From: Priestia megaterium NBRC 15308 = ATCC 14581
GTDB lineage: Bacteria > Bacillota > Bacilli > Bacillales > Bacillaceae_H
Reading direction: 5' to 3'
Length of the DNA stretch: 64,000 bases
Assembly (NCBI RefSeq): GCF_000832985.1
Contig: NZ_CP009920.1
Span: forward strand, 2,277,501 to 2,341,500
Part shown: piece by piece, positions 30,120 to 34,546 of the stretch
Layout of the letters: each line of letters begins with the position of its first letter
Numbering within the stretch: the stretch's first letter is position 1
The notes under the pieces: generated by a model
The model's input: only the letters and a program-made list of their open reading frames with translations
Told to the model about the DNA's origin: nothing
Database searches by the model: none
Program-made: the position numbers and the translations under genes

Positions 30120-30138
30120 TTTTAAAATATTTTTAAAA
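30120..30138 (+). promoter_or_regulatory. Direct repeats upstream of two-component genes
   Basis: TTTTAAAA occurs at 30120-30127 and 30131-30138, an 11-bp period. This is one helical turn, the spacing typical of OmpR/PhoB-type response regulators. A -10-like GATAAT follows at 30151-30156 without a good -35, fitting an activator-dependent promoter. The same pair precedes the FMN-binding gene at 34528-34546. Confidence 0.55.
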
Positions 30139-30191
30139 GTGACATGCTAAGATAATGCTTACTTAGGTACTCACAAAAGGGGGAATTTGAT

Positions 30192-30869
30192 ATGCGTGTA
30201 CTTGTGGTAGAAGATGATGCTTCATTATTACACGGTATCGTAGAAGGCTTAAAAGAAGAAGGATATGAAGTGGATTGTGCGTCTGAAGGAGATGAAGGTT
30301 TGTTTTTAGCAGAGCAGAATATTTATGATGCCTTGATTTTAGATATTATGCTGCCGGGTATGACAGGGCTTGACATACTAAAAAAGCTAAGAAAACAAAA
30401 GGTGCTGACGAAAGTTATTTTTCTTACTGCAAAAGATAGTGTAGAAGATCGAGTGAAAGGACTTGATTATGGAGCTGATGATTATTTGGTTAAGCCTTTT
30501 GCCATGGCTGAACTTTTTGCAAGGTTAAGAGTGATGCTCAGAGACTTGCAGGCAGAAGAAGGCATGATTTCATATGGTCCCATTTCTATACGAGAAGCCA
30601 ATCATGAAGTTATAATAAATGGGAGTGCCCTAACGTTAACGATTAAAGAATTTCAGCTTTTGGAATACTTTATTCGAAATAAAGAACAAATCCTTATTCG
30701 AGATCAAATTTTTAATCGGGTATGGGGGTTTACATCTGACGTAGGAGTGGGTGTAGTAGATGTCTATGTTCACCATTTAAGAAAGAAGCTTCAGCCTTTT
30801 AATTGTGACGGTTATGTACGTACAGTGAGAGGCGTAGGCTTTATGTTAAAAGGGGAAGAGCATGTTTAA
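30192..30869 (+). CDS. OmpR-family response regulator
   Basis: A 225-aa transcription factor with an N-terminal receiver domain (acidic E7-D8-D9, phospho-acceptor Asp51 in LILDIMLPG, switch T in FLTAKDS, K in LVKPF) and a C-terminal winged helix (LTIKEFQLLEYFIRN, VYVHHLRKKL, VRTVRGVGFML). GGGGGAA ribosome site. It overlaps the kinase gene by 8 bp. The direct repeats before it and before the FMN-binding operon suggest it regulates both. Confidence 0.95.
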   Translation: MRVLVVEDDASLLHGIVEGLKEEGYEVDCASEGDEGLFLAEQNIYDALILDIMLPGMTGLDILKKLRKQKVLTKVIFLTAKDSVEDRVKGLDYGADDYLVKPFAMAELFARLRVMLRDLQAEEGMISYGPISIREANHEVIINGSALTLTIKEFQLLEYFIRNKEQILIRDQIFNRVWGFTSDVGVGVVDVYVHHLRKKLQPFNCDGYVRTVRGVGFMLKGEEHV

Positions 30870-32097
30870 AAAGACGAGAATCAGGCTTGTGTTATTTAAC
30901 ACAATGGTGCTGATGGTTATTTTGAGCATTTTTAGTGTAGTTTTGTATTTTTACATGCAGCATCTTATTTTTTTAAACCCGGACAATCGGCTAAGTGAGA
31001 TGAGCGAGCAGGTTAAAAAAAGAAACTTACATGAGATCCAAGAAAACAATGAGAGAGAAACAGAACGGCGCGTTGCGTTTTTACTTTGGAGCAGTGATAA
31101 AAAACTAATCAAAATTACACCTAAAAAAGGGTTATATACAAACGATATTGACGACTTTAAGCCTGCACTCTCAGAAGGAAAAATCCAAACGTCGCAAGAA
31201 GTAAACGGTCATGCTTATCGAGTGATGAATGTGAAAAACGAAGGATATATAAAAGATCAAGACGTTTCAACAATTCAACTTGTCTTAAACGTAGATCCAG
31301 AAACTCAAACCTTAGAGCACCTTGCTTTTCTTCTTATCATTTCAGCTTTTATTGGACTGCTTCTTTCGCTTGTAGCTGGCTTGTTTTTAGCCAATCGAGC
31401 GCTTGTGCCTATCCAAAAGTCTTGGAACAAACAGGTCGAATTTATTGCAGATGCTTCCCATGAGTTAAGGACGCCTCTTTCCGTGATGCAAACGCATCTC
31501 GAGCTATTGTTTAGACGACCAAATCATACGATTGAGCAAGAAAGCGAAAATATTTATCAAAGCTTAAACGAAGTGAAACGGATGACGAAGCTGGTTGGCA
31601 ACTTACTAACACTGGCTAGATCTGATTCAAGTGCACAGCTGCTAAACAAAACGGTCTTTAATATGGGTGAGCTCGTTGATAAAGTAGCTAATCAGTTTGA
31701 GCCTATATTTGAACTAAAAGAGCTGCACTTCACAAGGGAAATTGAATCGTTAATGTGTGGAGGAGATCAAGAACGACTTCATCAGCTATGTATGATTTTA
31801 TTAGACAACGCTTTTAAGTACACCCCACCTGGAGAAAGTATTCATATTAGTCTAAAGAAACATCACCACTCTATGATGCTAATTGTCAAAGACACAGGCA
31901 TTGGAATTGAAGCGAAAGATCTTCCGTATGTGTTTGATCGTTTTTATCGAAGTGATAAGAACCGAGCCCGTGCCGAAGGAGGGTCAGGATTAGGTCTGGC
32001 GATTGCCAAATGGATTGTACAAGCCCATAACGGAGAAATTAAGGTTTTTAGTCAAAAAAACGTGGGTACGGAATTTTATGTGAAAATTCCGCTATGA
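30862..32097 (+). CDS. Sensor histidine kinase
   Basis: A 411-aa membrane sensor. TM1 lies at about residues 9-32, an extracytoplasmic sensor region of about 120 residues follows (charged, no PAS motif I can recognise), and TM2 at about 153-175. The HisKA phospho-acceptor is His200 in DASHELRTPLSVMQ. ATPase boxes are LLDNAFKYTP (N), VKDTGIGIE (G1), FDRFYRSD (F) and GGSGLGLAI (G2). Signal unknown; the facing redox module suggests a respiratory, flavin or metal cue, which is inference. Confidence 0.94.
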   Translation: MFKKTRIRLVLFNTMVLMVILSIFSVVLYFYMQHLIFLNPDNRLSEMSEQVKKRNLHEIQENNERETERRVAFLLWSSDKKLIKITPKKGLYTNDIDDFKPALSEGKIQTSQEVNGHAYRVMNVKNEGYIKDQDVSTIQLVLNVDPETQTLEHLAFLLIISAFIGLLLSLVAGLFLANRALVPIQKSWNKQVEFIADASHELRTPLSVMQTHLELLFRRPNHTIEQESENIYQSLNEVKRMTKLVGNLLTLARSDSSAQLLNKTVFNMGELVDKVANQFEPIFELKELHFTREIESLMCGGDQERLHQLCMILLDNAFKYTPPGESIHISLKKHHHSMMLIVKDTGIGIEAKDLPYVFDRFYRSDKNRARAEGGSGLGLAIAKWIVQAHNGEIKVFSQKNVGTEFYVKIPL

Positions 32098-32130
32098 AAA
32101 AAGCTGCCTGTCATTAGGCAGCTTTTTTCA
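32096..32130. terminator. Bidirectional terminator
   Basis: Stem AAAAAAGCTGCCT/AGGCAGCTTTTTT between the convergent kinase and RnfD-like genes. Confidence 0.93.
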
Positions 32131-33001
32131 TCACTTTTTTGTTTGCAGCCTTCCATGCTTTCCATGCATTAGCAAGTAACAGGCCAATTAATAAATAGGC
32201 GAGGCCGCCAAAAACTAAGTAATCTACGGCGCTAATTGCCCCCGCAAGCAGCCCAAATTTAATTTGGTCTTTATACTTCGCAGGAGAAGTTGGCGGATCC
32301 GTCACCATAAAGAAGGCTAAAAATAAAGCAGAATTGACAAAAGGAGCTCTTAAAGCATCCGCTACATCACCTACTCCTATTAATGACATAATCGCAAAAA
32401 TAGCAAAATACACGCCTAAAAACGCAAATACTTGAGGGAATTTATTTACTTTGCTTGTCACAAGGTACCCTGTCACAAACACGAATACAATGAGCCAGAC
32501 GGGTAGTAAAGATAAGCTTCCCCACCAGCTTTGGCCGCTTGAAAAGACAATAAGCGAAAAGAGAAGACCAAAAGCGGCAGGGTTAAAAATAGGCTTCTTT
32601 TTTACTTTTACTAAGTGCTTGGATAAAATCGCTACAGCTACGGTGCAAAATGTGACCGAAGGCGGTGTAGATGTGCTAAGCACTAAGGCAATAATTAATC
32701 CAGTAATGATCCCGCCGTCAGGGAGCTGAATTTTCTTTTTATAAGCAAAAGAAAATCCTAAATCTAAGGCGGCCGCCGAGCATATGGCAAGCAGTAGGTG
32801 TCCTAATCCTTGAAAGGCAGAAGAGTTGAATTCACCTAATAAGGTTAAAAGCAGCAGCATAGCCATCACGTATCTTTTAGGTGTTTTAACTAGCTGCGCC
32901 CACCGACTTATTTCTTTTGGTTTGTTTTCATCTACAATAATATAACCTTTTGGTGTACTAATATATTTAACACCGCTTCTTCGTTCAGAACGTGTGGTCA
33001 T
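32114..33001 (-). CDS. RnfD/NqrB-like membrane electron-transfer subunit
   Basis: A 295-aa integral membrane protein with eight to ten helices, related to RnfD/NqrB (and EetB-like proteins). Family segments are PDGGIITGLIIALVLSTSTPP, KKKPIFNPAAFGL and ALFLAFFMVTDPPTSPAKY. The covalent-FMN threonine motif of true RnfD/NqrB (SGAT) is not evident. It probably carries electrons through the membrane to the flavinylated partner protein. It overlaps apbE by 17 bp, with GGAGG inside the apbE end, so translation is coupled. Confidence 0.85.
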   Translation of the reverse strand: MTTRSERRSGVKYISTPKGYIIVDENKPKEISRWAQLVKTPKRYVMAMLLLLTLLGEFNSSAFQGLGHLLLAICSAAALDLGFSFAYKKKIQLPDGGIITGLIIALVLSTSTPPSVTFCTVAVAILSKHLVKVKKKPIFNPAAFGLLFSLIVFSSGQSWWGSLSLLPVWLIVFVFVTGYLVTSKVNKFPQVFAFLGVYFAIFAIMSLIGVGDVADALRAPFVNSALFLAFFMVTDPPTSPAKYKDQIKFGLLAGAISAVDYLVFGGLAYLLIGLLLANAWKAWKAANKKVMKKAA

Positions 33002-33914
33002 AATTCATTAATTCCTCCATATCTGATGTGAAAAAAGGAGTGAAACTAGAGTCGAAGAGTACGCCGCGTATGTCGGCATCATTCAATAAATTTACTCCTT
33101 TTTCCGCTCCTAAAATAAAAGCTGATGTAGATAATGCATCGGCCATCATGGCAGAAGGAGCAATCGCTGTACAACTCATTAGACTGCTTCGAGTGGATGG
33201 AGATAAGGGATTAACCAAATGATGCATGGATGGTTGCGTCTTATTTTTTCTAGCATAATTTCCTGATGTGCAGACAGCCGTATCTGTTACACGTAAAGTC
33301 AGTAATGACTGCGTTTGAATCCGAGGGTGCTGAATCCCGACTTTCCATAACTCTCCGTGTTGATTGAGTCCTTTAACTAGAATGTCTCCTCCGGCATTAA
33401 TCATAAAATGCTGATAAGGAAGGGAGCGGGCAGCCAAATCAATAGCTAATCCTTTGGCAACCGCTCCAAGATCTATAATCATCGGTTTTTGTAAGAGAAC
33501 CGTTTTTTTATGTGTATCCAATACGATATCTTTATAACTTCCAGAATCGACTGCTTCGTCCGTTTGTATGGAATTTCCATATAAGTAATGTTCGTTAAAA
33601 CCTCGGTTTTCTAATTGTTTTCCTACCGTTGGGTCAAAGATTCCATACGTTTCATTTGCTACTAAGACAGCGAAATAAAGGGCTTCAAATAATAGAGGAC
33701 TAACAGAAACGGGTTCTTTGACATGTCTAATTAGTTTCATCACTTCGCTTTTCGCATCAAATCGACTGCACGTCGTTTCAACGGCTTTAAAAATAGTAAA
33801 TGCCTTTGAAATATGGTGAAGGACATTTGCTTCCTCTGATTGCGGAGCAATTACTTGAAGTGAGACGGTTGTTCCCATACATAATACAGAGCGGCTATAC
33901 GTTTTTATGGACAT
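32985..33914 (-). CDS. apbE: FAD:protein FMN transferase
   Basis: ApbE-family flavin transferase, 309 aa, attaching FMN covalently to a Thr of FMN-binding proteins. Seen are MGTTVSLQV at the start, IDLGAVAKGLAID, FMINAGGDILVKG, AVCTSGNYARK and the acidic metal site in MMADALSTSAFILG. No lipobox is visible, so maturation may occur in the cytoplasm or the N-terminus acts as an uncleaved signal. AAGGAGAAACG precedes ATG. Its substrate is most likely the adjacent FMN-binding protein. Confidence 0.94.
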   Translation of the reverse strand: MSIKTYSRSVLCMGTTVSLQVIAPQSEEANVLHHISKAFTIFKAVETTCSRFDAKSEVMKLIRHVKEPVSVSPLLFEALYFAVLVANETYGIFDPTVGKQLENRGFNEHYLYGNSIQTDEAVDSGSYKDIVLDTHKKTVLLQKPMIIDLGAVAKGLAIDLAARSLPYQHFMINAGGDILVKGLNQHGELWKVGIQHPRIQTQSLLTLRVTDTAVCTSGNYARKNKTQPSMHHLVNPLSPSTRSSLMSCTAIAPSAMMADALSTSAFILGAEKGVNLLNDADIRGVLFDSSFTPFFTSDMEELMNYDHTF

Positions 33915-33928
33915 CGTTCGTTTCTCCT

Positions 33929-34441
33929 TTATGCATTCATTGCTTGCTGAAGTGCGTCATCCACGGCATTTTGAAAATCTTCTGTACTAAGTGTTGCTCC
34001 GCTCACGACGTCGACGTCTGAGCTTTGTCTTTGTACGACTTGAGACGGAAGGTCCTCAATGTAACTTTGAGAATAGTGAGTATCTGCTTCTGTAATTTCA
34101 ACTGTATCAATTCGGTCGTTTTTAATGGTCACGGATACGTAGACGGTTCCGATACGGTTGCTTCCTTGGCCAGAATACGTACCATCTTTGTATTTTGTTT
34201 TAGGAGCAGAACTTTCGGTACTTGCTGATGACTGGTTTTTATTAGACGAAGCTATATCTTCTCCCCAGCTGTCATTGACAATCGTTTGATTGTCTGTCTG
34301 ATCTGTCGTTTTTTTCTGATGATGAGCCGGTGTGACTTGAACAGCTTGTGCATCAGATAGAGTGTTTATATAGCCCGTTGCATAAATACTTCCAATGGCT
34401 ACACTGCATGCAGCAATCATCTTCTTGCCCATTTTACTCAT
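33929..34441 (-). CDS. Membrane-anchored FMN-binding protein (flavinylation target)
   Basis: A 170-aa exported protein. An N-terminal anchor (KKMIAACSVAIGSIYATGYI) is followed by a Ser/Thr/Gln-rich linker (about residues 30-80) and one FMN_bind domain (KYKDGTYSGQGSNRIGTVYVSV, DVDVVSGATLST). Thr150 in SGAT is the expected ApbE-linked FMN site. A Cys lies in the anchor but not in a convincing lipobox. First gene of an operon with apbE and the RnfD-like gene; AGGAGG start site. Confidence 0.92.
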   Translation of the reverse strand: MSKMGKKMIAACSVAIGSIYATGYINTLSDAQAVQVTPAHHQKKTTDQTDNQTIVNDSWGEDIASSNKNQSSASTESSAPKTKYKDGTYSGQGSNRIGTVYVSVTIKNDRIDTVEITEADTHYSQSYIEDLPSQVVQRQSSDVDVVSGATLSTEDFQNAVDDALQQAMNA

Positions 34442-34527
34442 GTTTGTTGAACCTCCTGATTTGTACCAGAACTATAGTTTCGATTGTTGATGGTTATCTT
34501 TAGCATAAATAAACTTTACAAATAAAC

Positions 34528-34546
34528 TTTTAAAAAAGATTTAAAA
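34528..34546 (-). promoter_or_regulatory. Direct repeats upstream of FMN-binding operon
   Basis: On the minus strand TTTTAAAT and TTTTAAAA are 11 bp apart, matching the pair before the response regulator in sequence, order and period. A second pair, AAAGTTTATTT repeated at 13 bp, follows towards the gene. The remaining bases of the 293-nt gap to ddl hold no feature I can support. Confidence 0.55.

Follow-up and report, generated by a model that had tools for sequence, protein, structure and literature searches.

The window (the whole 64,000-nucleotide stretch of DNA analysed here, from the soil bacterium Priestia megaterium) carries on its minus strand genes for an FMN_bind protein, an ApbE flavin transferase and an RnfD-like membrane protein, hereafter the trio, and next to them on the plus strand genes for a response regulator and a sensor histidine kinase (Table 1). 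The first-pass annotation had named the three minus-strand genes, and their coordinates and assignments were borne out by Pfam matches that exceed the curated cut-offs for all three proteins. Since 14 nt separate the FMN_bind and ApbE genes and the RnfD-like gene shares 17 nt with the end of the ApbE gene, all on the same strand, we read the trio as an operon. Genome-wide, there are one FMN_bind match, one PF03116 protein (detected as two stretches of a single frame) and two ApbE proteins. The further statement that no other Rnf or Nqr subunits are present agrees with what was searched: PF02508 (RnfA/RnfE, NqrD/NqrE) has zero matches in the whole genome, so the trio is not an RNF complex (RnfA/E of PF02508 with RnfB and RnfC), and none of RnfB, RnfC, NqrA and NqrF occurs among the nine window neighbours that were scanned with Pfam. 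These nine, the nearest other genes on both sides, comprise polyamine-type transport (by eye), an acyltransferase, a D-Ala-D-Ala ligase, a Mur ligase, a helicase, UvdE and a rhomboid protein.

Table 1. Features of the trio and the adjacent two-component system, with positions in the window.
Feature	Position	Strand	Basis
Promoter element of the response regulator gene: same element as that of the trio, -10-like TAAGAT	30120..30153	+	
OmpR-type response regulator, 225 aa	30192..30869	+	Pfam Response_reg and Trans_reg_C
Sensor histidine kinase, 411 aa; gene converges on the trio, with stop codons 16 nt apart	30862..32097	+	Pfam HisKA and HATPase_c; tree
NqrB/RnfD-fold membrane protein (predicted fold), 295 aa; without covalent-flavin segment or NAD-binding domain	32114..33001	-	Pfam PF03116 (NQR2_RnfD_RnfE) 1.6e-16; model; Foldseek
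GQSWWG loop, residues 156-161, in place of the long covalent-flavin segment of RsxD	32519..32536	-	Alignments
ApbE flavin transferase, 309 aa, without export leader	32985..33914	-	Pfam PF02424 6.5e-56; leader test
FMN_bind protein, 170 aa; N-terminal helix, low-complexity linker, one FMN_bind domain	33929..34441	-	Pfam PF04205 3.9e-10; 21-sequence alignment
SGAT motif, residues 147-150, with FMN expected on Thr150	33992..34003	-	Invariant in 21/21
Cys12 codon, N-terminal helix	34406..34408	-	Invariant in 21/21 orthologs
Trio promoter element: TTTTAAA-N4-TTTTAAA (34529-34546), 10 nt, -10-like TAAAGT	34513..34546	-	

Recurrence of the trio across genomes

A search of 397 genomes of the order with the RnfD-like protein matched 28, 23 of them strongly (E ≤ 1.8e-63, identity at least 41%) and five weakly; four of the weak five carry UnbU-type or similar proteins (G082, G310, G311 and G314), and in the fifth (G124) the frame is broken by stops. 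A scan of named genomes gave 11 loci, seven of them in new genomes (Ectobacillus, Metabacillus, Fictibacillus, Bacillus sp. 03113, a Bacillota MAG, Alicyclobacillaceae and Paenibacillus), and the closest named relative is Priestia aryabhattai, whose RnfD-like protein is 98% identical. Surveyed by gene neighbourhood, as the first-pass annotation had suggested, the RnfD-FMN_bind-ApbE triplet stands together at every one of the 30 ortholog loci, the full set being recognisable throughout and intact-looking at 29, and gene order is kept in 29, the exception being Paenibacillus sp. RC67, where ApbE is separate and divergent. One Priestia genome (G013; L008 and L047) has an in-frame TAG in the RnfD-like gene, with FMN_bind, ApbE and the two-component system intact-looking. 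Among 398 genomes of the phylum, only the source genome and G625, which lies outside the class, pass E ≤ 1e-15; in G625 the trio adjoins genes resembling integrases and a transposase, which suggests transfer as a unit. Because it recurs in 30 genomes and in one distant Bacillota genome, the trio is not a chance arrangement; it is an inherited unit.

Fold, flavin sites and topology

An AlphaFold2 model of the membrane subunit, built from 21 sequences, scored a pLDDT of 85.9 and a pTM of 0.81, and the fold it predicts is that of RnfD/NqrB. Membership of an unrelated transporter family had been named as one outcome that would undo the interpretation; in a Foldseek search, each of the 15 PDB chains at E ≤ 0.001 is RnfD or NqrB. 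A profile search also matches RnfD (1.2e-10) and NqrB chains, and the PF03116 match, which is above its cut-off, agrees with the fold. PF03116 is the sole Pfam match in the 295 residues, which hold no NAD-binding PF00175 domain. FNPA and TDP motifs are common to the trio RnfD-like proteins and Escherichia coli RsxD. The absence of an SGAT motif from this subunit, noted at the outset, goes further than first described, as the whole segment that bears SQAT in RsxD is missing and orthologs show GQSWWG in its place; chance S[GAQ]AT matches lie elsewhere in two of the 21 RnfD-like orthologs (residue 123 in L037 and residue 107 in L042). Loop charges suggest that the GQSWWG loop faces outward, and any flavin in this subunit would be held non-covalently.

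In pairwise identity, RsxD (21%) is not closer to the window protein than UnbU-type proteins are (20-25%), and PF03116 includes biosynthetic-cluster proteins encoded with an UnbV/ASPIC gene (L066). That the protein is instead a transporter-like UnbU relative, and the trio no electron-transfer system at all, nevertheless seems very improbable: RnfD and NqrB are what both the profile and the fold searches match, FMN_bind and apbE genes accompany the trio orthologs in 30/30 loci, and neither the FMN_bind nor the ApbE cluster of the trio has a member in the UnbU-type stretches (L066 and L068-L071). At L066, L068, L069 and L071 the PF03116 protein lies in a biosynthetic cluster, next to an UnbV/ASPIC-type gene.

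In the FMN_bind protein, the predicted attachment motif with Thr150 is present and invariant in all 21 aligned orthologs; an FMN_bind domain with an SGAT-type motif and an ApbE in the same genome, the combination that marks ApbE-flavinylated FMN_bind proteins, are thus both found here, and Thr150 is predicted to be flavinylated. The protein had been called exported, and of this the N-terminal helix stands; its hydrophobicity is weak (best 17-residue Kyte-Doolittle mean 1.54; 1.3-1.99 across 21 orthologs), so that export is a prediction. In the alignment, positive charges precede the helix and a long S/T/Q-rich linker comes after it, which suggests an N-in, C-out topology. E. coli RsxG has no Cys within its first 45 residues, in contrast to Cys12 of the trio protein, and the pattern of conserved Cys, Gly and Tyr may reflect packing of the helix against the membrane subunit. 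Alignments A1 and A2 hold 21 orthologs each and A3 holds 20; L036 and L047-L050 (near-copies or duplicate) and L053, L059, L060, L062 and L064 (genus already represented) were left out of all three, and L041 also of A3.

A linked two-component system and a shared promoter repeat

In 18 of the 30 loci, the genes for a response regulator and a kinase are found no more than 3.5 kb from the trio, five of these pairs being on its strand and 13 on the opposite one, which argues that the linkage has outlasted rearrangement. The other 12 loci have no such kinase in the stretch read; the sensor part of the kinase was used to search 27 genomes, among them ten of these 12, of which six give only relatives of 26-32% identity and four give none. 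In the kinase tree, which holds 16 of the 18 trio-linked kinases (L040 and L047 were omitted as near-copies of L049 and of the window's own), 11 trio-linked kinases form one core clade (95/93), and five paralogous kinases, from loci with efflux-type ABC genes, form a separate one (99/99). Adjacent kinases outside the core clade are either nearer the paralogs (L045 and L057, the latter only 32% identical) or distant (L046, L056 and L065, for which the tree warns of long branches). The kinase model itself scored a pLDDT of 73.9 and a pTM of 0.42.

The regions of eight weaker kinase relatives were read, five of which are in the tree (L152, L155 and L159 were missed by the motif filter). The nearest paralogous two-component system (L153, L154, L156, L157 and L158) adjoins genes that by eye are HlyD/ABC/MacB-type and efflux-like, and L153, L154, L155 and L158 also encode a protein with a methionine sulfoxide reductase A-like start.

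The same composite element, TTTTAAA-N4-TTTTAAA followed after 10 nt by TANNNT, stands in the window ahead of the FMN_bind gene and again ahead of the regulator gene. At the FMN_bind promoter it is found with 0-1 mismatches in 13 of 30 genomes and with at least three in the other 17, compared with 0-1 mismatches in 3/396 control genes. The 13 low-mismatch genomes are the 11 with core-clade kinases together with L040 and L047; at the regulator promoter, 0-1 mismatches were found in nine of 18 genomes, all nine among these 13 core genomes, and the remaining four of the 13 have at least two. Where the core kinase is absent, the spacing is frequently retained between different heptamers (for example, TTTTCAG in L055), and when repeat identity alone is scored, at an 11-bp period before TANNNT, at least 5/7 positions agree in 23/30 trio promoters versus 19/298 control genes; the trio promoters below 5/7 are those of L043, L044, L058, L059, L060, L064 and L065. 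We caution that these promoter counts are somewhat inflated by near-copies within Priestia and that the data in which the repeat was scored are also those in which it was discovered.

The window holds three exact repeat matches (one site counted on both strands) where 0.02 would be expected. Across the genome there are five exact matches at four places versus four for a reversed-pattern control, which could be taken to mean that the common repeat is an AT-rich coincidence and the adjacent two-component system unrelated to the trio. Since the repeat is not rarer genome-wide than its reversed control, it is place and conservation that carry the weight, and the excess in the window, the fixed distance to the -10-like hexamer kept in many genera and the match with one kinase clade together leave very little room for coincidence. 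We therefore consider it very likely that the two-component pair controls the trio, and this regulatory link is the best-supported of the new points. Two exact copies outside the module lie inside ORFs that by eye resemble a recombinase and an ATP-grasp-type protein, and a search for a wider regulon with the composite element at up to two mismatches (53 genome matches versus 31 for the reversed control) was too noisy to give further targets.

Flavin loading, electron partners and a proposed mechanism

An export leader was called in none of the 29 readable trio ApbEs but in 28 of 30 sampled Bacillota ApbEs, the latter being the best-scoring 30 of the 48 matches listed from 61 genomes and hence biased to high scorers. 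Trio ApbEs start, where readable, 7-33 residues ahead of the conserved M-G/D-T, with no hydrophobic stretch. The 29 are the 31 trio rows minus L041 and L050 (one genome, with an ApbE frame lacking the N terminus), and of the two sampled Bacillota ApbEs without a leader call, L123 genuinely lacks one, and L118, lying at a contig end, was unreadable. In the genome of L041 and L050, Gottfriedia endophytica (G395), the ApbE frame is short (252 aa; L041:5042-6011) and a separate 63-aa frame lies upstream. The second ApbE of the source genome (L072:7273-9232; same contig, about 2955270-2957230) is also leaderless; its neighbours are a membrane protein of the Ferric_reduct family (PF01794) and a low-complexity protein that matches no Pfam family.

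A leaderless trio ApbE implies that FMN is attached before export, that the FMN_bind domain is not exported or that ApbE leaves the cell by another way. An ApbE that works outside the cytosol depends on exported FAD. Were the domain not exported, the weak helix would tether it to the inner face of the membrane, where cytosolic ApbE would load it as part of an inner-face flavoprotein complex; the leaderless ApbE and the weakly hydrophobic helix are consistent with such an arrangement, and passages of PMC12052999 describe a cytosolic ApbE with a soluble target in Klebsiella. We nevertheless consider an inner-face complex unlikely because the charges before the helix and the S/T/Q-rich linker suggest the opposite topology, and the FMN_bind domain is extracytosolic in NQR and Rnf as described in parts of PMC8238504. 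Loading in the cytosol before export would make FAD export, or any other Nqr/Rnf subunit, unnecessary. It is the boldest of the new points, and a leaderless ApbE beside a target that appears to be exported is an oddity that counts against even the explanation that we favour.

The initial interpretation of a flavin-based transmembrane electron-transfer module with a single covalent flavin is still the best reading of the trio; its EET-like part, in which an NADH dehydrogenase feeds electrons outwards, gained no support, as no NADH dehydrogenase with a transmembrane helix, nor any redox partner, was found among the nine Pfam-scanned window neighbours. No donor or acceptor gene recurs near the trio across loci. 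Ten neighbours in other loci were Pfam-scanned, and these include a single pyridine-nucleotide reductase, a Pyr_redox_2 protein (L057:8938-9924; ferredoxin-NADP reductase-like by eye) that starts 2 nt past the RnfD-like gene. This arrangement, and the PF00175 domain fused to the membrane protein of the Nqr/Rnf-like class as passages of PMC8238504 define it, would fit the same module if its RnfD-like protein received electrons from a docked NAD(P)H or ferredoxin/flavodoxin reductase, soluble and cytosolic, that stands in for the fused domain; we regard this as doubtful, given that such a gene was seen at one locus among those with scanned neighbours and at none of the nine window neighbours. 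A DUF2231-type membrane protein (cluster c10, of which one member, in L058, was Pfam-tested) lies near the trio in seven of 30 loci (L045, L046, L056, L058, L060, L064 and L065). It was rejected as the missing donor and is not essential, since the source genome has no DUF2231; in lineages that carry it, it is a possible redox partner. Other neighbours (YetF/DUF421, an AI-2E-type transporter, NUDIX, YkuD, SpoIIP, MFS and chemotaxis proteins) were likewise discarded, not being common across lineages, and no redox partner recurs among them.

Flavinylated electron-transfer systems, those of the Nqr/Rnf-like class included, are already known (PMC8238504, eLife 2021; PMC10979944, 2024 preprint, = PMC11334425). 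In the passages of these reports that describe the class, it combines an NqrB/RnfD-like membrane protein, an NqrC/RnfG-like FMN_bind protein and ApbE in the absence of other Rnf/Nqr subunits, as the trio does, and is defined by a C-terminal cytosolic NAD-binding PF00175 domain fused in the same protein (PMC8238504); its membrane subunit, like ours, has lost the covalent flavin site, and a model puts the partner's FMN near a non-covalent flavin (PMC10979944). As far as those passages go, the trio differs in having no fused PF00175, a leaderless ApbE and a two-component system of its own. With NQR and RNF complexes the trio shares its predicted membrane-subunit fold and an FMN_bind subunit with SGAT, but the genome has no RnfA/E-NqrD/E and the second covalent flavin is missing. 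Like Listeria-type EET (PplA, FmnB, Ndh2 and EetAB), it pairs an FMN_bind protein with ApbE; unlike it, it has no NADH dehydrogenase neighbour among the nine scanned, a leaderless ApbE and an RnfD-like subunit instead, and the PplA profile match is weak (1.2e-5; 24.7 bits versus a cut-off of 325). The Klebsiella ApbE also has no signal peptide, but the target given for it in the relevant passages of PMC12052999 is a soluble cytosolic fumarate reductase, whereas the trio target looks exported. Our literature searches, which did not extend to supplements where the trio may be listed, returned no account of it together with a two-component system of its own and an ApbE that lacks a leader.

We thus propose, with about even confidence, that the five genes at 30192-34441 form a self-contained inducible redox module, an inducible and pared-down flavoprotein system of the Nqr/Rnf-like kind. 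In this proposal, the sensor kinase would detect a signal at the outer face of the membrane and activate the response regulator, which would bind the direct repeat of 11-bp period at the -35 region and turn on its own gene and the trio. Cytosolic ApbE would load FMN onto Thr150 before or during export of the FMN_bind protein. Electrons would then cross the membrane in the RnfD-like subunit, through a flavin held there non-covalently that links an inner partner to the covalent FMN, much as in an NQR stripped of its NADH half and left with the quinone half. Quinone is the electron-exchange partner of NqrB, and menaquinol would be the likeliest inner partner, with the FMN_bind protein handing electrons on to an acceptor in the cell envelope. 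We infer the donor, the acceptor, the direction of flow and activation rather than repression. A more specific form of the proposal is put forward only tentatively. In it, the dedicated two-component system and its own operator would control a membrane flavoprotein coupled to quinone; leaderless ApbE would attach the one covalent FMN while the protein is still in the cytosol, and the two would be exported together.

If correct, cytosolic loading of an apparently exported target would be at odds with the common assumption that flavinylation of exported proteins takes place outside, and systems of this type could escape surveys in which both a fused NAD domain and a signal peptide are required. 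The module would rank with the smallest Nqr/Rnf-kind units for flavin-based electron transfer at the membrane, and it occurs in tractable spore-forming aerobes; its dedicated sensor and promoter element would make the function of such systems directly testable through the inducing signal.
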